The translations under genes were made by a program, and so were the position numbers. A DNA stretch of 64,000 bases from Methylophaga sp. GTDB lineage: Bacteria; Pseudomonadota; Gammaproteobacteria; Nitrosococcales; Methylophagaceae. The stretch lies in NCBI GenBank assembly GCA_026988435.1, contig JALSLH010000087.1:1-64000 (forward strand), written 5' to 3'. Positions within the stretch are counted from its first letter, which is position 1, and each line of letters begins with the position of its first letter. A model generated the notes under the pieces. The model had not been told where the DNA came from. It saw only the letters and a list, made by a program, of their open reading frames with translations, and searched no databases. Below are positions 8,888 through 26,038 of the stretch, piece by piece.

Positions 8888-9493
8888 ATGAATAAAATCA
8901 ATTACAGCAACCTAACATATAGAGGAATGCGGCTCATAAGCATGCTTATATGTATTGTTCCGGGTGTTTCTGTAGCTGAAACTTTGGGGACGACTATTGA
9001 TTGCTCTAAAGTAGAAATTCATTACACCAATAATCCTGAGTGGACCCATAGCGAAAGAATTGAGGCAATGGATAAAGCTTTTTTCGAATCGCTAGATCGT
9101 TTTGAGCTATGCAACTTATCCAATCAAACCAGTGCATCGTCCTCCTCTGCAAGTGGCGCAGGACAAGCCTCAGATAGTAACGGTGGTGCAGGAGAAGGTT
9201 CTGTCGCAAGTTCAACGATGACAGGGACAGAAGAAGAAGCAGACAACATTGCTGGTGAACCTGCATCCTCAGATGACTCAAGCGCCTCAGAAACCACCTC
9301 TCAAGAATCTACACAAGAGACTGCAGGCAGTACCAACAGTAACGGCGGTAAACCTGAAGACATTCCTAGCGCAGATAACGATGATGTGATCGCAGCACAA
9401 ATTCGGCGCGCTGCTGAAATTGAACAAGATCCTGTTAAAAAAGAAAGATTATGGGATGAATACCGAAAATATAAAGGACTTCCTAGCCAATGA
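8888..9493 (+). CDS. Exported Ser/Gly/Glu-rich protein of unknown function
   Basis: I do not recognise a family. The 201 residues begin with a signal peptide (core SMLICIVPGVSVA, probable cut before ETLG). A short folded part with two Cys (TIDCSKVE and FELCNLS) follows, which could form a disulfide. Residues about 80-160 are low-complexity Ser, Gly, Glu and Thr. A charged helix (IRRAAEIEQDPVKKERLW) ends the protein. A purine-rich sequence sits directly against the ATG; an alternative ATG at 8927 would give a shorter signal peptide. Its stop overlaps the start of the next gene, so it is the first cistron of the envelope cluster. Confidence 0.7.
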   Translation: MNKINYSNLTYRGMRLISMLICIVPGVSVAETLGTTIDCSKVEIHYTNNPEWTHSERIEAMDKAFFESLDRFELCNLSNQTSASSSSASGAGQASDSNGGAGEGSVASSTMTGTEEEADNIAGEPASSDDSSASETTSQESTQETAGSTNSNGGKPEDIPSADNDDVIAAQIRRAAEIEQDPVKKERLWDEYRKYKGLPSQ

Positions 9494-10734
9494 TGATGAA
9501 TAATAAATATCACACCGCAAAAAAAATAATGGTCTATGTGATCGTTTTTTCACATTTCCTTGTGGGCTGTGCAACAACAGGTGGTCAAAATGGCACAATC
9601 AAGGTCGGTCCAAAATCATCCTCATCCTATAATGAAGATGTGAGCAAAGTCATCTCTACCGCACCGAAGCTAGATGTTATTATCCCCGTTTTCGATCCCG
9701 GCCTATCTGAAGAGGCCGAAAACTATGAAAAAGATGGCATCTGGCCTGAATTACGCCGAGCAGAAGCTAATCGTTTCGCATACAAATTAAAACAAGCACT
9801 AGATGATAGTAAGGCTTTTGGTGCTGTGCGTGTTACGCCTGACGAGACGGCATCCGGCGATTTATATGTGCTCGGTAAAATTGAAGAATCGGATGGTCAA
9901 GATGTGAAATTTAGGCTAAATGTTGTCGATATTAGCGGCAAAAAATGGCTCAATAGTAGTTTTAGTCATGAAGTAGAGGCTTCTTTTTACAAAAACACTA
10001 GGAATGCTGGCGGCGATGCCTATGACCCTGTTTTTGAAAAGGCTGCTGAAGGCATTATAAAGGCATTGCAAAGACGAAGTGCTTCAGAATTGGATGATTT
10101 AAAATACATTGCTAATCTTCAATTTGGTGCCAGTTTTAATGATGCCGCTTTTGCAGAGTATGTGGATACCAAAGGGAAATATACTAAATTAATCAGCAAG
10201 CCTAGCGATAATGATCCTCTTTTTGAACGCGTGATGGCTATTCGCGTCCGTGAACAATTATTCGTAGATAACCTTCAGCAAACATATGTCGCTTTTTCAC
10301 AAAATATGAATGATAGTTACCTAGCTTGGCAAGAAGCCAGTTTTACTGAAAAACAATTACGTAAAGAGGCTCAAAAGAAAGGTATCTACAAAACGGTTGG
10401 CGGTTTGTTACTTATTGCATTAGCCATCGCCGCCGCATCATCTGGTGATAGCAAGAACTCCAATGTCTTAGGTGATACCGCTGCTGTTGCAGGGGGAATT
10501 GGTGGTGCAATCTTGATCGCCGATGGTTTTAAGTCTAGAGAAGAAGCTAAATTTCATCAAGAAGCTCTGAACGAGTTAGGTGAATCAATCAACCTCGAAA
10601 TGTCACCTCAAGTCATCTCTTATGAAGATGAAAGTGTCAAGCTAACAGGTAATATACAACAGCAATTTGAGCAATGGAGAGCGTTCCTGCAGCGTATTTA
10701 TGAGCAAGAATCTACCCCTAATGTTGAGCTCTAA
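9490..10734 (+). CDS. Outer-membrane-type lipoprotein of the envelope cluster
   Basis: The 414-residue protein has a lipoprotein signal peptide with the lipobox LVGC at Cys27 and Ala at +2, which favours sorting to the outer membrane. The domain after it (VIIPVFDPGLSEEAENYEK, then RAEANRFAYKLKQALDDS, then FGAVRVTPDE) resembles periplasmic proteins that assemble a response from many subunits, but I cannot name it. Around residues 300-345 lies a Gly/Ala-rich hydrophobic stretch (GLLLIALAIAAASSGD, then GGIGGAILIADG) that could be glycine-zipper-like. The start overlaps the stop of the previous gene within ATGATGATG, so translation is probably coupled. Confidence 0.75.
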   Translation: MMMNNKYHTAKKIMVYVIVFSHFLVGCATTGGQNGTIKVGPKSSSSYNEDVSKVISTAPKLDVIIPVFDPGLSEEAENYEKDGIWPELRRAEANRFAYKLKQALDDSKAFGAVRVTPDETASGDLYVLGKIEESDGQDVKFRLNVVDISGKKWLNSSFSHEVEASFYKNTRNAGGDAYDPVFEKAAEGIIKALQRRSASELDDLKYIANLQFGASFNDAAFAEYVDTKGKYTKLISKPSDNDPLFERVMAIRVREQLFVDNLQQTYVAFSQNMNDSYLAWQEASFTEKQLRKEAQKKGIYKTVGGLLLIALAIAAASSGDSKNSNVLGDTAAVAGGIGGAILIADGFKSREEAKFHQEALNELGESINLEMSPQVISYEDESVKLTGNIQQQFEQWRAFLQRIYEQESTPNVEL

Positions 10735-10740
10735 TGCCTC

Positions 10741-12186
10741 GTGAAATTTGAACAGAAGATATTAGAAGCCAAGGAAAAACGCCACAGCCAGTTTGTTAAA
10801 GTAGCAATGGGGCTGATTATTATTTCGCTACTCTGTGCATTGGTTATTATTCTTTTATCTTACAAGCCTTCTAAAAAAGACAGCGTCGAGATGGTGGAAG
10901 CGGTGGACGATAGACCGTTACCGACCAAGCCCGCATCATTGCCAGAAATTCCTGATGAAGAGCTACGTCAAATATATATTAAAGCACTAGCTAATTACGA
11001 AAACAGCCTCAAAGCTGAGCTTGCTAAGATTGATTTAATTAAGTGGAATAAAGCGCGGTCTGAAGAGCTTGCATCCATAAAAGATAAGGCACTTGCAGAA
11101 TTTACAGCCACTGATTATGCCGGCGCTATCAGCTTTATGGAGGGCTTGACTCAACTTTCCCAAACCACCATAGCTGAGAGCCAGCAACAATTTAAACAAG
11201 CGCTATCAAATGCACAGAACTCATATCTCGCCGATCAGTATGATGATGCCAAATTTCAGATAAACCAAGCACTCATGCTTGATAAAACAGCTACTGAAGC
11301 GGCTGATTTATCCACTAAAATTGATAAACTGCCTGAAATAATAGAGCAGCTAGAGAAAATTAATACCGCTAAGGTTGAAAATAAACTTGATAGCGAATTA
11401 CAGCTTATTAAGCAGCTACTTAAGCTTGCTCCCGACCGAACAGATGCAATCAAACGAAAGCAAGTGTTAATTAACGCCATTAGCCAAAGAAACTTCAACC
11501 GTTATATTAGCCAATCCTATTCCGCGCTCAAGAAAGAAGATACACGAACAGCAAGGCAAAAAATCAGTGCTGCCAAAAAGATATTTCCCAAGCGTCAAGA
11601 AGTAGCTAATGCAACGCTCGCATTGCAAGAACTTGAGAAAACACAACGCTATAAAATGCACTCAGAAAATGCACAAAAAGCAATAGCATCAGATAACTGG
11701 TCTGTAGCAAAAAAACAGTTAGAGCTCGCCTTGCACGAGCAAGCTAATGATAAAGCCAGTCAACAATCATTGGCACAAGCAACAGCAATTATCGCCGCGA
11801 ATAGTGAATTTGAACAACACATTAAAAATCCTTATCGTTTATCTAATAAAACCCTTGCCTCAAAATTAAAAAACAAACTAGATAACACCGCTGCACTCGC
11901 TAAGCTCAGTCCATCACTGAACAAAAATAGAGATAGCTTATCTCATCTTATTCAAGAGATGGGCAAAGAAATTATTGTAGAAATCTCTTCCGATAAGCTG
12001 ACAAATATTATCGTCAGGGGAGTTGGAATTGTAGGTAAAACGCAATCAAAAACCATTAAATTACTGCCTGGCGAATATAGCTTTGAAGGAAAGCGCAAAG
12101 GCTTCAAATCTAAATTGATTAACGTTCTTATCCCCTATGATAAGCCCAATTTTCATATAAAAATTCAGTGTGATGAACCCATTTAA
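10741..12186 (+). CDS. Single-span membrane protein with helical repeats and a C-terminal PEGA-like domain
   Basis: The 481-residue product starts at a GTG six bases after the previous stop. A short cytoplasmic tail (FEQKILEAKEKRHSQF) is followed by one membrane helix (about residues 20-41) and a long, lysine-rich, mostly alpha-helical periplasmic region that may contain TPR-like repeats. The last 75 residues form a beta-rich unit (VEISSDKLTNIIVRGV, then LLPGEYSFEGKRKGFKS) of the PEGA type, a surface and periplasmic interaction domain. The tail and membrane helix resemble those of the next gene product. The function is unknown; a scaffold role is inferred. Confidence 0.75.
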   Translation: MKFEQKILEAKEKRHSQFVKVAMGLIIISLLCALVIILLSYKPSKKDSVEMVEAVDDRPLPTKPASLPEIPDEELRQIYIKALANYENSLKAELAKIDLIKWNKARSEELASIKDKALAEFTATDYAGAISFMEGLTQLSQTTIAESQQQFKQALSNAQNSYLADQYDDAKFQINQALMLDKTATEAADLSTKIDKLPEIIEQLEKINTAKVENKLDSELQLIKQLLKLAPDRTDAIKRKQVLINAISQRNFNRYISQSYSALKKEDTRTARQKISAAKKIFPKRQEVANATLALQELEKTQRYKMHSENAQKAIASDNWSVAKKQLELALHEQANDKASQQSLAQATAIIAANSEFEQHIKNPYRLSNKTLASKLKNKLDNTAALAKLSPSLNKNRDSLSHLIQEMGKEIIVEISSDKLTNIIVRGVGIVGKTQSKTIKLLPGEYSFEGKRKGFKSKLINVLIPYDKPNFHIKIQCDEPI

Positions 12187-14179
12187 TCAACAATTGCTCG
12201 AAGCAAAAAAGCAGCACCGCCAGCGTTATCTCAAAATAATGGCATTCTTTATTATCGGTGCATTAATTGTTCTTTTGGCTATCTTCGCTTCACGAGGCAC
12301 GCGCATTGAAGTCCACCCTGACGATGCCGCAGAGTTAGCCTCCGTACGGCTAGAGCAAGGTGCCGCTATTGTTTTGGGAGGAACGCTCTACTCACTATCA
12401 AAAAGGCCGACTATCAAGGTGTCTGCCGAGGGTTTTAAGCCTACAATACACAAATTGAACCCGCGTGATTTTGGCAAGGTGGTTTCTGTAACCCTAGAGC
12501 CGCTCCCTGCAAAAATAATACTCAGCACAAATATTAATGATGATAAAACTAGCTGGCTAATCGATGATAATGTTATCGATATTGCAGCCACGTTGGAACA
12601 CGAGCTCGATGCAGGGGAGTATAAATTAACCATTTTCCACCCCCACTACCAAGATGCTTCCGTAGCGTTATCACTGGCTAGAGACGAAGTTTTCAAGCTC
12701 CTTGTTCCACTCAGTCCTCTTGATGGTTCACTTTCCATAAAAACTAAGCCTAGTGGCGCTCACATCACCATAGATGATGTAGATAAAGGCATTTCTCCTA
12801 TTGATATCGCCATAAAAGGTGGTATTCACAATGTGGTCATTACGCTCAATAATCACCAAACAATCAATGATTCTATTGAAATAAACCGCACAACATCTGC
12901 TGTTATGCGTGATTATAATCTGGCTATAAAAAAGGCGGCTATTTCTGTTTCATTGAAGCCTCAGGGCGGGCGTTTGGTTCTAGATAATACCGTTATCAAT
13001 AATCCTCATAATATCCCCATCACAAAAGAGATAAAACATAACTTATCTTATTCAAAACAAGGTTACTTCACTCAAAATCAGACCTTTACCCTTCACAGCG
13101 ATGAAAAAGTAAAGATGGCATTTGAGTTGAAAAAAGAAATGGGGCAAGTTGAAATAATATCCACTCCAGAATCATCTGTTGAGCTCAATGGCAAACTTAT
13201 TGGCAACACGCCTATGCAACTATCTTTACAAGCTGTTTCTCAAAAGATCACGCTACATAAACAAGGATTTCGTAGTATCACAAAATTAATAACACCCAGT
13301 GCTGCGACGCTAAAAAAAATCAATGTGTCATTACTAAGTGAAAAAAATGCACGACTCAATGAAGCACCCAAATTTTATACGCATAAAGCCGGTGGACAAT
13401 TAAAACTATTTATACCTAATGATACATTCACCATGGGCGCAAGCCGTAGCGATCGAGGGCAACGTGCAAATGAATTTTTACAAAAAGTAAAACTCACCAA
13501 AGCTTTTTATGCCGGCATCACTGAAGTCACTAACGAACAATATCGCCAATATAATAAAAGTATAAAGGGTGCATCAAAAGAACCCGTAGTCTCTATTTCA
13601 TGGATTGAGGCGGCAGGATTTTGCAACTGGCTCAGTCGATTAGAAGGACTAAAACCTGCCTATCAGATTAGTGGGCAACAACTTACTGGTGTGACTCCTC
13701 AGAGTGATGGCTATCGCCTATTAACAGAAGCTGAATGGGAATGGTTGGCTCGAAAGGCAGGGAAATCAAAACAAACTACCTTCGTTTGGGGAAATGAATA
13801 TATTATTCCTAAAGATGCGGTGAACATTGCTGATGAATCATCGAACGGATCAGTGAAAATATTTGTTTCAAAATATAACGATGGCTTTCAAAAGCTTGCC
13901 CCGGTGAAAAGTTTTACTCAAGAAAAATCAGGGCTTTATGATCAAGGTGGCAATGCAAGCGAGTGGACACATGATAGCTATTCGATCATGCCGCCTAAAT
14001 CAGGTAAAGTATTCATTGATCCGTTTGATCTAACTACGAGCAATTCACATGTAGTCAAAGGGGCAAATTGGCGCTCTGGATCAGTCACTGAACTCCGACC
14101 CTCGTTCAAAGAAGGTTTGAGCAATTTACGTGACGACCTTGGCTTTAGAATTGGACGATATGTGTATGGAGGAAATTAA
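12173..14179 (+). CDS. Membrane-anchored multi-PEGA protein with C-terminal SUMF1/FGE-like domain
   Basis: The 668 residues begin with a tail like that of the previous protein (FNQQLLEAKKQHRQRYLK) and one membrane helix (about 20-40). Three or four PEGA-type beta units follow (for example IKTKPSGAHITIDDVDKG and ISTPESSVELNGKLIGNTP). From about residue 400 there is a formylglycine-generating-enzyme-like domain: FTMGASRSDRG, EVTNEQYRQYN, YRLLTEAEWEWLARKAG, GLYDQGGNASEWTHD, LGFRIGRYV. The Cys pair that real FGE uses for catalysis is not present, so a binding rather than sulfatase-activating role is likelier. I chose the ATG at 12173 over the GTG at 12170. The gene overlaps the previous one by 14 bp. 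Confidence 0.85.
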   Translation: MNPFNQQLLEAKKQHRQRYLKIMAFFIIGALIVLLAIFASRGTRIEVHPDDAAELASVRLEQGAAIVLGGTLYSLSKRPTIKVSAEGFKPTIHKLNPRDFGKVVSVTLEPLPAKIILSTNINDDKTSWLIDDNVIDIAATLEHELDAGEYKLTIFHPHYQDASVALSLARDEVFKLLVPLSPLDGSLSIKTKPSGAHITIDDVDKGISPIDIAIKGGIHNVVITLNNHQTINDSIEINRTTSAVMRDYNLAIKKAAISVSLKPQGGRLVLDNTVINNPHNIPITKEIKHNLSYSKQGYFTQNQTFTLHSDEKVKMAFELKKEMGQVEIISTPESSVELNGKLIGNTPMQLSLQAVSQKITLHKQGFRSITKLITPSAATLKKINVSLLSEKNARLNEAPKFYTHKAGGQLKLFIPNDTFTMGASRSDRGQRANEFLQKVKLTKAFYAGITEVTNEQYRQYNKSIKGASKEPVVSISWIEAAGFCNWLSRLEGLKPAYQISGQQLTGVTPQSDGYRLLTEAEWEWLARKAGKSKQTTFVWGNEYIIPKDAVNIADESSNGSVKIFVSKYNDGFQKLAPVKSFTQEKSGLYDQGGNASEWTHDSYSIMPPKSGKVFIDPFDLTTSNSHVVKGANWRSGSVTELRPSFKEGLSNLRDDLGFRIGRYVYGGN

Positions 14180-14181
14180 AT

Positions 14182-14334
14182 ATGAAATTATTCATTAGCA
14201 ACTATAAAAAGATAATCATCACAAGTTTATTTATTGTGGCCTTAATCATTGTGTCATCGCTGGTGCATGATGCCTATGCAGCCAAAAAGACAATAAGCCT
14301 TAATTCTCCTGTTTCCTTCCCTGTCGATATATAA
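14182..14334 (+). CDS. 50-residue exported or membrane peptide in the envelope cluster
   Basis: This short frame begins 2 bp after the preceding stop, with a good ribosome site (GGAGG at 14168-14172) ahead of ATG 14182. It encodes a basic start (KLFISNYKK), a hydrophobic segment (IIITSLFIVALIIVSSLV) and a possible signal peptidase site after DAYA, leaving a mature peptide of about 17 residues (AKKTISLNSPVSFPVDI). It ends 14 bp before the channel gene. The tight fit between two genes of the same direction supports it being translated. The function is unknown; it could be a small accessory subunit or a membrane peptide that is not cleaved. Confidence 0.6.
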   Translation: MKLFISNYKKIIITSLFIVALIIVSSLVHDAYAAKKTISLNSPVSFPVDI

Positions 14335-14348
14335 GCGAGCCTATTGCT

Positions 14349-15095
14349 ATGATGAAAAGTTTTATCGCACTCATTATCTCCATCATCTTTGTGCATATGA
14401 TTTATATTGGCTATGTTCGGCCTGAAGCCAATGCCTTTATTGAAGCCGCTCAAGAGCAAGGGCTGACATCTCCCAGAGAAGTCGTGGTTATCTTGAAGGA
14501 TTATGAACAAGAAATCTGTTTTATCTTAATGCTTTGGGGCTGTTTTTTAATTTCAACTAATTACCGCAAAATCTTAAAAACTAAATATCTGTTTTCCGTT
14601 GATCTATTAGAGCATGAAGATCAGGATAATTTTGATGTAGATAGCATTATCGAAAGATTAGATAAGCAAATACCTGAAGACTGCATGTCTTCACCCCTTG
14701 TCCAAACTCTGCGGTCATCATTATGGCGTTATACTTCGACCAAAAATGTGCAAAATCTATCTGATGCCATTGATAGCAACCTTGAATCCTTAGCCGTAAG
14801 ACAAGATTCCGAAAACACCATGATCCGCTATTTGATCTGGGCAATACCTTCTATTGGTTTTATAGGAACAGTACGTGGGATCGGCCAAGCATTATCACAG
14901 GCAGATCAAGCTTTGGCGGGGGATATTGCAGGTATGACAGATAGCCTTGGTGTTGCATTTAACTCAACACTTGTTGCCCTACTCATCAGCATTTTTTTGA
15001 TGTTTCTTTTCCATCAATTACAACGGCTACAAGACAGTCAAATACTGGATACACAAGAATATTGTGAAAAGTATTTGCTCAGTCGAATAAAGTAG
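14349..15095 (+). CDS. MotA/TolQ/ExbB-family proton-channel protein
   Basis: Proteins of this family form pentameric inner-membrane channels that, with an ExbD/TolR/MotB partner, turn proton flow into movement. The 248 residues contain four predicted helices: about 5-24, 52-70, 155-176 and 195-220. The diagnostic motif PSIGFIGTVRGIGQAL lies in the third and FNSTLVALLISIFLMF in the fourth. The cytoplasmic loop between helices two and three is about 85 residues, which is TolQ/ExbB-like. The next two genes encode proteins with a single stator-like helix, the expected partners. No flagellar, Tol or TonB genes are nearby, so it serves some other machine. Confidence 0.88.
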   Translation: MMKSFIALIISIIFVHMIYIGYVRPEANAFIEAAQEQGLTSPREVVVILKDYEQEICFILMLWGCFLISTNYRKILKTKYLFSVDLLEHEDQDNFDVDSIIERLDKQIPEDCMSSPLVQTLRSSLWRYTSTKNVQNLSDAIDSNLESLAVRQDSENTMIRYLIWAIPSIGFIGTVRGIGQALSQADQALAGDIAGMTDSLGVAFNSTLVALLISIFLMFLFHQLQRLQDSQILDTQEYCEKYLLSRIK

Positions 15096-15105
15096 CCTTA
15101 CCAGC

Positions 15106-16167
15106 TTGATTAAGCGCAAACAATCAGAAGGCTTTAACCTCGCTTTTCTCGATATTATGTCGTGCGGTCTAGGTGCGATAATTCTTGTTTTTATGCTGGT
15201 GAAGCACAATGTAGCCGATTCCTCCATCGAGCTTGATAATCTCAAAAATGATATTCAGCAACTTGAAGAGAAGAAAAAGGTAGCACAACAGACATTACAA
15301 AATATCACTTCACAACTTGCTGAAAACACCCTAGAAGAAAGTGTGGCCAGAGAAGAGCTCAAAGCAAAAAAATCTATTTTAAGCCAAACAAGTGCCGATG
15401 TTGAATCAGCCTCTCAAGAATTAGAATTACTTAAAGAAAACATTAAAACGATAAAAGTATTAAAAAAAGCTGACTTAATCGAAACAAAGCCTGCTCAAGA
15501 AGAGCATTATCTACTTGGCCTCAAAGTCGAAGGAGCCAAAATTGCCATTTTAGTAGACAGTAGCGCGTCAATGACAAATGAAAAACTCATCGACATTATC
15601 AAAACTAAAGGTGGAACAAGCAAAGAAAAACAACACGCTAGAAAATGGATCCGTACTCAAAAAGTCGTTCAATGGTTGCTTGCTCGTTTGCCTAAAAACA
15701 GTGATGTAATTGTTGTAGCATTCAATGAAAAAGCAATTATTTTAGGCCCTAAGAGTTGGGCTAAAGCAAGTGGCTCATCAACTATTAACGCCATTTTGTC
15801 TGATCTGAACAAGTTAGTCCCTGAAGGTGCGACTAATTTGCAACAAGGGCTTCAAACCATCAATAAATTTTCACCTTCCAATTTGTATATCATCACTGAC
15901 GGTCTCCCGACCAAGGGAGAATCTCGATATAAAAGCCTTAATCCCTTTGCTAGTTGCAGCTCATTATCGGGCAAATCAAATATCATTTCAGGTGAATGTC
16001 GAGTCAAACTATTCAAACAGACCATTAAAGAAAGTGCTAAAAGTAATGTTCAAGTCAATGTGATTTTATTGCCACTTGAAGGCGATCCCGATGCGGCAAA
16101 TCAATACTGGAGCTGGACAGCCGCAACAGGCGGATTAGTGCTCAGCCCTGCAGGTAATTGGCCATGA
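15106..16167 (+). CDS. ExbD/MotB-like helix fused to periplasmic von Willebrand A domain (VWA protein 1)
   Basis: The 353-residue protein has one N-terminal membrane helix, NLAFLDIMSCGLGAIILV, with an acidic residue (Asp16) at its start, as in the proton-carrying helix of ExbD. A coiled coil follows (about 40-120), then a VWA domain with a complete metal site (MIDAS): DSSAS at 151-155, Thr243 in EGATNLQQG and Asp265 in YIITDG. VWA domains bind protein partners through a metal ion. The start is a TTG at 15106, 10 bp after the channel gene; no ATG upstream keeps the helix. It is probably the stator partner of the channel protein; that pairing is inferred. Confidence 0.82.
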   Translation: MIKRKQSEGFNLAFLDIMSCGLGAIILVFMLVKHNVADSSIELDNLKNDIQQLEEKKKVAQQTLQNITSQLAENTLEESVAREELKAKKSILSQTSADVESASQELELLKENIKTIKVLKKADLIETKPAQEEHYLLGLKVEGAKIAILVDSSASMTNEKLIDIIKTKGGTSKEKQHARKWIRTQKVVQWLLARLPKNSDVIVVAFNEKAIILGPKSWAKASGSSTINAILSDLNKLVPEGATNLQQGLQTINKFSPSNLYIITDGLPTKGESRYKSLNPFASCSSLSGKSNIISGECRVKLFKQTIKESAKSNVQVNVILLPLEGDPDAANQYWSWTAATGGLVLSPAGNWP

Positions 16168-17114
16168 AATTACGTAAAAAAGAATTTGATGTTTTTAATC
16201 TGTCCTTTTTAGATGTTATCTCTTGCGGCTTTGGTGCGGTTATCATTCTGGTGCTCATATCAAAAACACATGATGATGTATCAATTATAGGCAAAGGCGA
16301 AGTGGAAAGCTTATTAACCACCGTCATCAGCCTTGAAAATGATATTTTAGATCTAACACAAACCGTCAACAGCCAGTTATCTGCAAATAATCAATCAGCA
16401 ATTGAGAAAAAACGCTTAGCCGCCGTTACTCTTGAAATGGAGAATAAAATACAACAACAGAAAACAACGCAATCATCGTTATCAGAGTCTGTGCAAGGCC
16501 TATCATTAGTGCAAACGACATTAAAACAGGCTTCCATCCCCACAAAAAAACCGACCAATGCCATTCGAGATAAAGAGGTAGGCGGTATTCCCGTTGATAG
16601 TGATTATGTTATTTTTATTGTTGATACATCAGGCAGTATGAAACAGATCTGGAATCGTGTTTCAGCAGAAATAATAAATGTGTTAAATATTCACCCTAAG
16701 GTAAAAGGTTTTCAGATTCTCAATGATATGGGGGCACCCATCATATCGGGTTATGCTGGCAAATGGATCCCCGACACCCCAAAAAGAAGAAGCAGTGTTA
16801 TCAAACTATTTAGTAGCTGGGGAGCAGTGTCAAACAGTAGCCCGATTGAAGGCATTCAAGTCGCATTATTAAAATATGCAAAACCCAATATTACAACGTC
16901 CATCTATGTGTTTGGTGACGATTATACCGGCGCATCTTATGACCCAGTTATTAGACAAATTACTAAGAAAAATTTATTAGCCAGCTCAGGGAAAAGACTT
17001 GCCAGAATCCACGGTATTGGTTTTATCTCTTCTGGAACAACAAATAGATATAGCATATTAATGCGTGAACTAACCAAACAAAATGGTGGGGCTTTTCTTG
17101 CATTGCCACTCTAA
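16164..17114 (+). CDS. ExbD/MotB-like helix fused to periplasmic von Willebrand A domain (VWA protein 2)
   Basis: This is a paralogue of the preceding protein in layout: 316 residues with N-terminal helix NLSFLDVISCGFGAVIILVL and Asp17 in the same place, a coiled coil (about 45-120) and a VWA domain. The metal site has DTSGS at 154-158, a Ser in SNSSPIEG in place of Thr, and an Asp in YVFGDDYTG, so it is probably functional. I chose the ATG at 16164, which overlaps the preceding stop as ATGA, rather than a TTG two codons earlier. Two different VWA stator proteins beside one channel gene suggests a heteromeric stator, as with ExbD dimers. Confidence 0.82.
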   Translation: MKLRKKEFDVFNLSFLDVISCGFGAVIILVLISKTHDDVSIIGKGEVESLLTTVISLENDILDLTQTVNSQLSANNQSAIEKKRLAAVTLEMENKIQQQKTTQSSLSESVQGLSLVQTTLKQASIPTKKPTNAIRDKEVGGIPVDSDYVIFIVDTSGSMKQIWNRVSAEIINVLNIHPKVKGFQILNDMGAPIISGYAGKWIPDTPKRRSSVIKLFSSWGAVSNSSPIEGIQVALLKYAKPNITTSIYVFGDDYTGASYDPVIRQITKKNLLASSGKRLARIHGIGFISSGTTNRYSILMRELTKQNGGAFLALPL

Positions 17115-17215
17115 TACTAAATTTAATATTTGCAGTTAAACTGGCATATTGATATCGTTCCTTCAACCTAGAGGACTGGGTTCTAATAATAATTCAAAAT
17201 AAATGGAGAGTTGTC

Positions 17216-17410
17216 ATGTTGAAAATCATCGGTATCGTATTAATGGCTTTTGGTGCTACGGACTTAATTGGTAGTTATGCCGGTTTTGATTTATGGGGAA
17301 CATTGGGAATACAGCTTCCTGATGCTATATGGAAATATTCATCTTATATTGAATTAGGTTTAGGTTATGTCCTAATGAAATTGGGCGGATCTAGTGACGA
17401 TGATGAATAA
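17216..17410 (+). CDS. Small membrane protein, 64 residues
   Basis: The family is not recognised. It is preceded by a clear ribosome site (GGAGAG, 17203-17208). It has two hydrophobic segments (IIGIVLMAFGATDLIGSY and YIELGLGYVLMKLGG) and an acidic end (SSDDDE). It lies 101 bp after the second VWA gene and just before a strong terminator, so it may be the last gene of the same transcript. Similar short two-helix proteins occur widely as unnamed genes. The reading frame is supported by start context and composition only. Confidence 0.5.
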   Translation: MLKIIGIVLMAFGATDLIGSYAGFDLWGTLGIQLPDAIWKYSSYIELGLGYVLMKLGGSSDDDE

Positions 17411-17468
17411 CTGTCCAACTTAAATATTCAAATCAGCTTTCATAAGCGGAAGCTAATTTCAGAAAATA

Positions 17469-17504
17469 AAAAGCCCCGCTCAAATTAATGAGCGGGGCTT
17501 TTTT
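17469..17504 (+). terminator. Rho-independent terminator
   Basis: The stem AAAAGCCCCGCTCA (17469-17482) pairs with TGAGCGGGGCTTTT (from 17489) around a six-base loop and runs into six T residues. It closes the rightward run that begins at 8888. The A-tract on the left lets it work on the opposite strand too. Confidence 0.9.
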
Positions 17505-22816: not shown

Positions 22817-25800
22817 TTACAGCTTTCTCTCTAGAATATCTTTCACTTCTTCAAAAGATTTTGTAAATCGCTTGAGCCCTTTTTTCACGGCATCAGTACC
22901 TTCTAATTGATGTTTTTCAAAAAGATCTCTCGCTATTTGATGCATTCGGTCATGCGATCTTTGTAACTGCTCAATCCATCTACTATCAAAGACATGGTCT
23001 TTGCGCAAACGTTCAATCCAGATCCCTAAATGACACCGATTTAAATAGGAGCTTAATTTTTTATTCTCCGATTTCAATACTTTATTGATCTTGTTGAACC
23101 AATGCTCAGTCGTCAATTTAAGTAAGGTTATTTTTTCTTCTTGTAATGTAAGCTGACTACCACCATATGCAATCCAGCGTAAATTAGGTGTGTAACTTTC
23201 AATCCAAGGTACTATATCCTCAGCAGGAAGCGGCCAAGCGATTCCCTCACCTTGCGCACTCTCACAGCCCATAATCAGCAGCATTATCCCTACCGCTTCA
23301 TTTTCAACCCCTTCCGCAATTACATTTCGGTTAAAAGCTTGTGCTAAGCCAATAACACCTTCAATAATACTGTAATCACTTGGGTCGTCCAATAAATCTC
23401 GCACAAAAGTTTGATCTATTTTTATCGTATTGGCTGACAAGTTTCTGATATGCGTTAATGAGGAATAACCTGTCCCAAAATCATCTAATGCTACATCAAC
23501 TCCTAAGACATTTTGGCAGGTTTTAATAATTTTACTAATAGCACTCACATCTTTTAAAACACTGCTTTCTAATATTTCTAATTGCAGGTCATACGAATCA
23601 ATAGTCGGATGCAGTTCTAACGCATTATTCACCTGATCAAAAAAAGTGGGTGAAAGTAAGTGGTGAGATGAAATATTAACACTCACTTGAAGATGTATGC
23701 CTTGTTTCTGCCATAGATCAAGCTGATCTAAAGCCCTATTGAGGATCCATTCTCCTAACTCTATCTCTAAGTCTGTTCCTTCAAGGCTAGGTAAAAAATC
23801 TAAGGGTGGTACAAGTCCTTTTTCAGGGTGATTCCAACGTACTAATGCTTCAACACCTAATATTTTACCCGTCTTCATATTTACTTTTGGCTGGAAATAT
23901 AAACACATTTCATTACTTGCTAATGCATGACGAATTTCATCTAATTGATGATGTTTTTGGATAATTTGAAGGTCATCTAATGCATTAAACAAATGAAAAC
24001 GATTTCGGCCTTCCAACTTAGCCTGATACATTGCTTGATCAGCATGTCTCACTAATGTATCCCTATTTTCATCATCAATCGGATAAAGTGTTACTCCAGT
24101 TGAGGCTGTAATTTTATAGGGATGACCATTAATGATATAAGGTCTAGCAAGCGTATGATGGAGACGTTCTAATAATTGCTCACAATGCGAAAATGACTCA
24201 ATATCACCCAGTAATATTGTAAATTCATCTCCGCCTTGACGAGAAACAGTATCCTCCACTCTTATACTGGAACTAATTCGTTCTGCCACCTCAATTAATA
24301 ATTTATCCCCCACCTCATGGCCATAATTATCATTAATCGGTTTGAAGCTATCTAAATCAAGAAAACAAACAGCCAATAGCGTCTTATTACGATTACTGTG
24401 TGCAATTGCTTGAGCAAACCGGTCAGCAAACAATGTTCGGTTCGGTAATTTAGTTAGTACATCAAAATGTGCCATTTGCTCTAATGCACTTTGCTGGTGT
24501 TTGCTTTTGGTAATATCTGAAAACAAAGAAACATAGTGGGTAGTATGATCGCCATCTTTCAATGCCGAAATCGTAATCATTTCTGCGAATAGTTCACCAT
24601 TTTTTTTCCGATTCCAAATCTCTCCTTGCCAATGTCCATTATCAATAATCGACTTCCACATCTCAGCATAAAATTCAGCATCATGTTTGCCTGAACTCAG
24701 TATATTAGGATTATTCCCAATCGCTTCTTCACGGCTATAGCCTGTTATAGCACTAAAGGTAGGGTTAACATCAACAATGGTTCCTTTAGTATCAGTAATA
24801 ACGATTCCTTCATGCGCATCACTAAATACTTTCGCCAAAAGATATTGTTCGGATTGGGCTTGTTTACGCTCTGAAATATCTCGAATAAAGGCGTTAAATT
24901 CATAACTTCCTTTGATTTTTATAGCCGATACTGTCAATTCAATTGGAAACTCATGGCCATCGAAATGTAAGGCTTCTATTTCAACGACTTTATTGAGTAT
25001 AGTTGCTTCTCTTGTTTTAAGAAAATGAGCTAGCCCCTTACGGTGTGCACCTCGATATCGTTCAGGTATGATTAACTTATGGATAAATCGCCCTTTTGCA
25101 TCACTGGCAGGCCAGCCAAACATCTCCTCTGCCCGCACGCTCCAGCTAATGATTTCACCTCTTGTATTACACCTAATTAAGGCATCAAATGCCGAGTCAA
25201 TTATGGCGTGAATTCTAGCTCTATCCTCTTTTTCTTGCTCAACCAACCGATCTAACTTTGCTATTGCCTGCTTATATCGTAATAAATGAGGAATTAAAAT
25301 GGCCAGCATTATAATCATAAATGTCATAACGCTTACCATAATAGTAAGTGTGTCTGAATCTATCCCTTTTACAATTCCACTTGTTTCCATAGGAGAAAAG
25401 TCAACTGCTAACATGGCCGTATAATGCATACTTGACGTTGCAAGCCCCATTACAACCGCGCTCAATATCTGTGCTTTACTAATAAACTGATATTGTTGTT
25501 GATTTGTTGCTTGATGTTTTATTCTCAGCGCAATTGTTGCAATCACTACTGCTTCAATAAGAGACAAATAAAATAGAAATGGATCATGGTACATAGTTGC
25601 ATCCATTCTCATCGCAGCCATGCCAAGGTGATGCATCCCCCCTATTCCCGCACCTAATAACAAACCATCTCGTAGCAAATTGATTCGTGTATAACTTGGT
25701 TTTGCCATCATCCACAACACCACAACGGAAGCGGCAATGGCGGGGATGACAGAAATAAGCGTTATCGTGACATCATAAACCACGGGAATAGGTAAACTGA

Positions 25801-26038
25801 GTGCTAGCATGCCAATAAAATGCATAGCCCAAATACCGAAGCCCATTGTCACTGCACCAAAAAACGTCCATATAATTTTGTATGATTTGCGTGATGCCGC
25901 ATAAATCCGCTCTGCCACGCCAAATGCGGTAAATGATGAAACTATCGCAATTAAAACAGACAAAATAACTAATGGAACACTATATGTTTGCTCCAATACA
26001 ATATCTGGTAAAAAATGCTGGTGGTTCATAAAAAGCAT
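22817..26038 (-). CDS. MHYT-PAS-PAS-GGDEF-EAL-CZB c-di-GMP signalling protein
   Basis: This 1073-residue protein should make and/or break cyclic di-GMP. The N-terminal 230 residues are a seven-helix MHYT sensor with all three motifs (MHFIGM, MHHLGM, MHYTAM), thought to bind copper and sense gases. Two PAS domains follow (about 265-395 and 400-515). A GGDEF domain has intact GGDEF at about 602-606, and an EAL domain has EALVRW near 730 and DDFGTGYSSL. The last 100 residues form a CZB zinc-binding domain: the EHWF, CHLGIW and HDRMH sites supply His and Cys ligands. It ends 19 bp downstream of ilvD. The RBS GAGGGAA supports the start. Confidence 0.93.
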   Translation of the reverse strand: MLFMNHQHFLPDIVLEQTYSVPLVILSVLIAIVSSFTAFGVAERIYAASRKSYKIIWTFFGAVTMGFGIWAMHFIGMLALSLPIPVVYDVTITLISVIPAIAASVVVLWMMAKPSYTRINLLRDGLLLGAGIGGMHHLGMAAMRMDATMYHDPFLFYLSLIEAVVIATIALRIKHQATNQQQYQFISKAQILSAVVMGLATSSMHYTAMLAVDFSPMETSGIVKGIDSDTLTIMVSVMTFMIIMLAILIPHLLRYKQAIAKLDRLVEQEKEDRARIHAIIDSAFDALIRCNTRGEIISWSVRAEEMFGWPASDAKGRFIHKLIIPERYRGAHRKGLAHFLKTREATILNKVVEIEALHFDGHEFPIELTVSAIKIKGSYEFNAFIRDISERKQAQSEQYLLAKVFSDAHEGIVITDTKGTIVDVNPTFSAITGYSREEAIGNNPNILSSGKHDAEFYAEMWKSIIDNGHWQGEIWNRKKNGELFAEMITISALKDGDHTTHYVSLFSDITKSKHQQSALEQMAHFDVLTKLPNRTLFADRFAQAIAHSNRNKTLLAVCFLDLDSFKPINDNYGHEVGDKLLIEVAERISSSIRVEDTVSRQGGDEFTILLGDIESFSHCEQLLERLHHTLARPYIINGHPYKITASTGVTLYPIDDENRDTLVRHADQAMYQAKLEGRNRFHLFNALDDLQIIQKHHQLDEIRHALASNEMCLYFQPKVNMKTGKILGVEALVRWNHPEKGLVPPLDFLPSLEGTDLEIELGEWILNRALDQLDLWQKQGIHLQVSVNISSHHLLSPTFFDQVNNALELHPTIDSYDLQLEILESSVLKDVSAISKIIKTCQNVLGVDVALDDFGTGYSSLTHIRNLSANTIKIDQTFVRDLLDDPSDYSIIEGVIGLAQAFNRNVIAEGVENEAVGIMLLIMGCESAQGEGIAWPLPAEDIVPWIESYTPNLRWIAYGGSQLTLQEEKITLLKLTTEHWFNKINKVLKSENKKLSSYLNRCHLGIWIERLRKDHVFDSRWIEQLQRSHDRMHQIARDLFEKHQLEGTDAVKKGLKRFTKSFEEVKDILERKL

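Follow-up and report, generated by a model that had tools for sequence, protein, structure and literature searches.

Gene content and conservation of the cluster

The window analysed here is the whole 64,000-nucleotide stretch of Methylophaga sp. DNA (contig JALSLH010000087.1 of assembly GCA_026988435.1, positions 1 to 64,000), in which a run of packed genes, named A to G, and a small gene, H, are found between glnE and groEL. An earlier note on this DNA had described eight rightward, overlapping or nearly touching open reading frames (ORFs); these were confirmed at the same positions on the plus strand, with neighbours mostly overlapping or 6-10 bp apart. The terminator proposed to close the run was also recovered, as a stem-loop of 15 pairs, 8 of them G-C, with T tracts (17468..17503), and is common to the convergent groEL gene. 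The gene list itself held for the eight ORFs but overlooked a conserved gene for a 50-amino-acid (aa) peptide, named s here, in the gap between D and E. The nearest named relatives, according to both the scan of species genomes described below and a tree of E, F and G, belong to Methylophaga.

Using E as query over 84,980 species genomes, 75 loci were obtained, and the 84 sequences finally analysed represent 77 distinct loci, seven re-fetched regions being repeats of named ones. Among these 84 sequences, relatives of A were found in 63, of B in 71, of C in 75, of D in 80, of E in 84, of F in 78 and of G in 77, the missing members being mostly due to contig ends. The order A-B-C-D-(s)-E-F-G recurs with closely similar spacing in most of the 77 distinct loci, which span Gamma-, Beta-, Alpha- and Zetaproteobacteria, Thermodesulfobacteriota, Nitrospinota and Binatota, and the flanking genes are ordinary and common to close relatives only. 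Since this order is kept in dozens of genomes, chance is ruled out, and A to G together with s are one conserved gene unit. Co-occurrence of the genes in other genomes, which the earlier note had proposed as a check, is therefore established, and the scattering of homologues without a shared neighbourhood, which it had named as contrary evidence, was not observed. The small membrane protein that it counted in the set is H (17216..17410, plus strand; 64 aa), which was seen in the window alone, with no relatives in the other 83 sequences, and was consequently dropped as a cluster member.

A few loci depart from the common arrangement. A PIN/VapC-like toxin ORF is inserted in the D-E gap of a Mariprofundus locus (L090), where s and E are intact, and one complete but rearranged set (L087:7882-16602) has D-s-E on the strand opposite to A, B, C, F and G. 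B and/or D are broken into two or three ORFs in Spongiihabitans (L099) and Magnetovibrio (L072), by assembly frameshifts or in decaying copies.

A second architecture, A-B-C-D-s-E-[x]-F-G, is present at many gammaproteobacterial loci (L148, L152, L153, L157-L163, L104-L109 and L038), x being a protein of about 430 aa in some members of which an FHA domain was found. Often this form also has a TPR protein encoded upstream and, downstream, two lipoproteins with an M48-type peptidase, these last three being named by eye from sequence. E is relocated behind G in two loci (L156 and L163), and the mature part of s in the second form is longer and acidic with an unchanged tail.

Distribution and horizontal spread

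The distribution of the unit is patchy. G, taken as its marker, was found in 32 of the 369 Gammaproteobacteria genomes sampled and in 13 of the 74 from a Mariprofundaceae-type family, and a strong match to E in 4 of 28 other genomes of the genus of the window. In one congener (G027, locus L171) glnE and groEL lie about 150 bp apart, representing an empty site, and in another (G018) the cluster occupies a site identical to that of the window. A third (G008) has the cluster on another contig (C56) and an unrelated ORF between groEL and glnE. This ORF (L168:2711-3613), of 300 aa and of unknown family, sits at the junction that the cluster occupies in the window and hints at an exchange site.

In the tree of E, F and G, Thermodesulfobacteriota fall together with a gammaproteobacterium and Nitrosomonadaceae, and Nitrospina is nested inside sponge-associated gammaproteobacteria, with E identities of 76-85% across phyla; bin contamination could mimic single cases of such placements, but the pattern recurs. 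Given its patchiness within genera, the empty glnE-groEL site of a congener and a tree that crosses phyla, the cluster is interpreted from these sequence comparisons as a horizontally moving module. No cluster match was obtained in the phage collection and one weak match in the plasmid collection, while IMG/VR yielded one contig with a relative of E only and none for G; a phage, plasmid or viral origin was thus rejected. The IMG/VR contig, labelled viral (L164), carries an E relative of 40% identity with no further cluster gene detected, and is perhaps a mislabelled bacterial contig.

Beyond groEL, the window also encodes, by eye, a large MHYT-PAS-GGDEF-EAL-like signalling protein (22817-26038, minus strand) unrelated to the cluster.

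Periplasmic and outer-membrane components

The first four genes, all on the plus strand, encode exported or envelope-anchored proteins. A (8888..9493) is a 201-aa exported protein with a signal peptide, a small Cys-containing N-terminal part, a low-complexity linker and a conserved C-terminal motif, PxDIPxAxND...QIRxAAxxExDPxxKxxLWxEYRxYxG; no database family was matched. B (9490..10734) bears the lipobox L-V-G-C27, Cys27 being invariant (58/58), and has A at +2, so that it is predicted to reside in the outer membrane, in agreement with the outer-membrane lipoprotein of the earlier note.

No significant match to B was obtained by sequence among solved structures. In its AlphaFold2 model (mean predicted local distance difference test score, pLDDT, of 75.6), residues ~58-200, which precede a helical part, resemble FlgT (VIA-align Z of 11.3), PelC (11.2), CsgG (10) and TolB (9), the fold matches overall having Z of 8.7-11.3 over ~105-133 aligned residues with root-mean-square deviations of 2.1-4.2. 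On the basis of this model, the N-terminal domain of B is assigned to the FlgT/PelC/CsgG/TolB-D1 fold group, an assignment that concerns likeness of fold and not function.

The earlier note had described two PEGA proteins, C and D, of which only D was borne out. C (10741..12186) has one membrane helix, a long TPR superhelix and a C-terminal beta domain of transthyretin/PEGA type in its AlphaFold2 model (mean pLDDT 92.5). PEGA was not matched in it by Pfam, which found TPR_2 in 31 of 52 relatives. Foldseek matches were to TPR and to carboxypeptidase beta domains, all at E-values of 0.001 or above, and the reading of C consequently rests on the Pfam matches of its relatives and on the model.

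D (12170..14179) contains one membrane helix, four PEGA repeats according to Pfam and a C-terminal FGE-sulfatase domain of ~260 residues (Pfam, E 2.4e-31), related to formylglycine-generating enzyme (FGE) of the SUMF1/PorK type, which the earlier description had missed. Its best NCBIfam match is GldK (2.3e-25), whose 89.7 bits fall far short of the family cut-off of 350; profile matches in the PDB were to FGE and PorK, and the domain is also related to PvdO. Residue counts in the relatives revealed no conserved Cys at the active-site stretch 628-651, Cys485 alone being common. D as an active formylglycine-generating enzyme was therefore rejected, the two active-site cysteines being absent. The FGE fold of PorK likewise is without catalytic cysteines and forms the docking hub of a secretion machine that is proton-driven (PMC12421860).

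A small exported peptide between D and E

The gene s (14182..14334, plus strand), whose ribosome site GGAGG lies at the end of D, encodes a signal peptide with an A-Y-A cleavage consensus, followed by a predicted mature 17-mer, AKKTISLNSPVSFPVDI. A peptide ending in F-P-x-D-I-stop adjoins E in 75 of the 76 loci that have E with upstream sequence, the sole locus without this tail (L113) being cut by a contig end, and elsewhere in the 1.22 Mb, read in all six frames, the pattern occurs only 12 more times. None of F, P, D and I varies among the 75 peptides, which is partly imposed by the search pattern, and the codons of these residues vary, Pro being encoded by CCG in 31 cases, CCT in 19, CCC in 13 and CCA in 12. 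Since codons vary at invariant amino acids, selection acts on the s protein. In 66 of the 75, a hydrophobic core precedes a signal-peptidase consensus (A-x-A or V-x-A), with a mature length of 17 residues in most. From these sequence features, the product of s is probably a secreted peptide of ~17 residues with a fixed tail.

The motor core

E (14349..15095, plus strand) is a channel subunit of the MotA/TolQ/ExbB family, MotA_ExbB (PF01618) being matched by Pfam in the window protein and in 37/37 relatives. Its pore threonines at transmembrane positions are invariant (T174 in 75/75 and T207 in 74/74). F (VWA1; 15106..16167) and G (VWA2; 16158..17114, with a probable ATG start at 16164), on the same strand, each have an ExbD-like transmembrane helix and end in a VWA domain, with a coiled coil between the two in F. 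The membrane-helix Asp is invariant in both, as Asp16 of F (58/58) and Asp19 of G (68/68). Pfam matched VWA_2 in F and only a weak VWA in the window G alone, with VWA_2 in 27 of 46 relatives of G. The metal-ion-dependent adhesion site (MIDAS) is complete in F (D151, S153, S155, T243 and D265), and the corresponding residues of G are D156, S158, S160, S227 and D254; the positions are invariant in both. Among solved structures, nothing significant was found by sequence for E and G, and mainly coiled-coil matches for F.

A clear relationship between the helices of F and G was found by hhalign (99.4%), and they carry an N-L-x-x-[FL]-[LI]-D-like motif that resembles ExbD. Comparisons of this helix with ExbD by hidden Markov model (HMM) and hhalign yielded no significant match, and the likeness is kept as a motif resemblance. 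According to Pfam, none of the eight cluster proteins contains an ExbD domain, while the ExbD/TolR genes of the genome sit elsewhere, on contigs C21 and C24; the cluster therefore represents an additional motor. Neither a peptidoglycan-binding nor a TonB-like part was found in F and G. The view that two stator-like proteins carry VWA domains in place of such a part is consequently sustained, with a full MIDAS in both.

Proposed function and alternative explanations

The operon is proposed, with a probability estimated at about 0.55, to encode a trans-envelope force machine driven by the proton motive force. Five copies of E would form a TolQ-like ring, and one F with one G, or pairs of each, would form an axle with a proton-accepting Asp in each membrane helix. 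Proton flow through E would move this axle, possibly by rotation, and its periplasmic heads, two different metal-binding VWA domains, would grip, pull or turn partners, which would be D through its FGE-like dock, the TPR/beta protein C and the peptide s; the putative contacts of the VWA domains with D and s may be made from metal to Asp. With D anchored in the inner membrane and lengthened by its PEGA repeats, force would be passed to the exported A and to the outer-membrane lipoprotein B, which shares its predicted fold with ring-forming proteins of secretion systems and of the flagellar H-ring and may itself form a ring. The task of the machine would most likely be to energise the export, assembly or anchoring of a presumptive cargo at the outer membrane.

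This proposal is put forward because the order A-B-C-D-s-E-F-G is conserved amid unrelated flanks and because the Thr of E, the Asp of F and G and the MIDAS residues are invariant. It also draws on the FGE domain of D lacking Cys, as does that of PorK, a structural docking hub that a proton-driven motor serves (PMC12421860), on the match of the B fold to FlgT, PelC, CsgG and TolB, and on the absence of ExbD from the cluster and its presence elsewhere, consistent with an extra motor. Further grounds are an AlphaFold 3 (AF3) model of a like TolQ and vWA pair, given in the accessible part of a published article (PMC12204202), and PpkA-TagR-TagQ as an independent precedent for a periplasmic VWA acting alongside a partner and a lipoprotein of the outer membrane (PMC3224232, PMC6657622).

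Several points weigh against it. No cargo is indicated by the neighbouring genes, and the VWA domains could act statically or as sensors instead of carrying force. The comparisons of the F/G helix with ExbD helices by hhalign and HMM tests were not significant, hhalign covering 35 columns with low power, and the type of fold seen in B is also found in many unrelated lipoproteins that are not ring-forming.

A device dedicated to secretion or surface assembly, in which B would make a ring or gate in the outer membrane that the motor, together with D and C, would open or load, and A or s would be the cargo, is a possible though doubtful explanation, and is a specific form of the force machine with its cargo named. 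The fold shared by B with PelC, CsgG and FlgT, the resemblance of D to PorK of the type IX secretion ring and the export signals and conserved C-terminal ends of A and s are in its favour, secretion signals often being conserved C-terminal ends. However, a beta-barrel translocon is not conserved in or beside the operon, and one short peptide would be an unusual sole cargo for an eight-protein machine. A sensor of contact or envelope stress, in which the VWA and FGE domains would detect a ligand, perhaps s or a change of the outer membrane, and the TolQ-like channel would be a gated switch, is judged unlikely. It would account for the co-occurrence of an outer-membrane lipoprotein with VWA and FGE-family domains, and for the FHA-domain protein of the second form, FHA being typical of signalling; TagR likewise has an FGE-type domain. 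The sensor domain of PpkA is a VWA that acts with TagR and TagQ (PMC3224232, PMC6657622). Nevertheless, the operon has no conserved kinase, phosphatase or regulator, and the full set of proton-path residues expected of a working motor is invariant across E, F and G.

The role in defence considered by the earlier note, as a Zorya-like anti-phage system whose proton motor would report envelope perturbation, is very improbable. The cluster is indeed a patchy, horizontally moving block, and PADLOC detected similarity of E to ZorA and of F to ZorB, albeit weak and partial (E-values of 2e-4 and 2.8e-4). No ZorC, ZorD or ZorE effector was seen in the unit, A-D and H being unmatched by PADLOC and no extra gene recurring at first-form loci. 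Moreover, the unit has neither a nuclease/helicase effector nor the peptidoglycan-binding part of ZorB, and, unlike Zorya, it includes an outer-membrane lipoprotein and exported parts. Defence genes near homologues, also suggested as a check, amounted to single, scattered matches among 89 nearest-neighbour proteins, and the phage and viral collections were essentially empty of the cluster. Anti-phage defence was consequently set aside as unsupported.

Within the force-machine proposal, an integrin-like metal-Asp clutch is conceivable, whereby the metal sites of the two VWA heads would grip the acidic F-P-x-D-I tail of s and connect the inner-membrane motor to the outer membrane; this would constitute a new machine class and is regarded as rather improbable. 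Proton-driven envelope motors are few (Mot, Ton, Tol, Agl, Gld/Por and Zor), and each is central to understanding how work is done at an outer membrane without an energy source of its own. The motor core described in 2025 here gains a testable list of parts, comprising an FGE-like dock, a TPR scaffold, a lipoprotein, an exported protein and a tiny peptide small enough for annotation to miss, with its invariant tail. The cluster is present in cultured strains (Methylophaga, Magnetovibrio and Mariprofundus), so that deletion is feasible.

Comparison with known systems

None of flagellar Mot, Tol-Pal, Exb-TonB or ZorAB fits the cluster, as the earlier note had stated. Like Tol-Pal, it has a TolQ-like subunit and, in B, a TolB-D1-type fold, but it is without a TolR (ExbD) domain, TolA, Pal (OmpA domain) and the TolB propeller, and the genus has a separate Tol-Pal operon. 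It differs from flagellar MotAB in that the OmpA-like peptidoglycan-binding domain of the B subunit is absent, F and G ending in VWA, and from Exb-TonB in that ExbD and the TonB C-terminal domain are unmatched in it. Zorya ZorAB similarly combines a MotA-family channel with a single-helix partner, whereas here the ZorC/ZorD effectors are absent, VWA replaces the peptidoglycan-binding part and profile similarity is weak.

A proton-driven motor with a non-catalytic FGE-fold protein is also found in PorKN-PorLM (GldKLMN) of type IX secretion and gliding. In contrast to that system, D is not a lipoprotein but an inner-membrane-anchored protein with PEGA repeats, the axle consists of VWA proteins and not GldM, the channel is MotA_ExbB, Sov and PorN are absent, and the cluster occurs outside Bacteroidota. 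In the TagQRST-PpkA sensor of type VI secretion, the periplasmic VWA domain of PpkA acts with TagR and the outer-membrane lipoprotein TagQ (PMC3224232, PMC6657622). The cluster shares an outer-membrane lipoprotein and a periplasmic VWA with a periplasmic partner, yet lacks the kinase, the ABC transporter and the type VI genes, and its VWA would sit on a motor axle.

The closest counterpart is the TPH-vWA/TolQ-like family (Mol Biol Evol 2025, msaf138, PMC12204202), which, according to the accessible part of that article, comprises a TolQ-like channel and heterologous vWA pairs with an ExbD-like helix, has no tolR/exbD and is of unknown function; its AF3 modelling placed the axle inside the pentamer. 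Both have a channel with two different vWA proteins bearing a helix Asp, without adjoining tolR/exbD, in Proteobacteria. Of the features described for this family, the window has a channel beside vWA genes, a vWA pair with Asp helices and a cluster without tolR/exbD, and by sequence the E-F-G core matches it. Because TolQ-like channels with paired vWA proteins were described in 2025, the core of the candidate new machine of the earlier note is not wholly new. That part of the 2025 text mentions no PEGA, FGE/sulfatase or small-peptide partner, and no paper uniting FGE, PEGA, VWA and a proton channel was found in the literature. Taken together, the full eight-part list including s, its spread and its second form look new relative to the 2025 description of the core, as far as the accessible text of that description extends.

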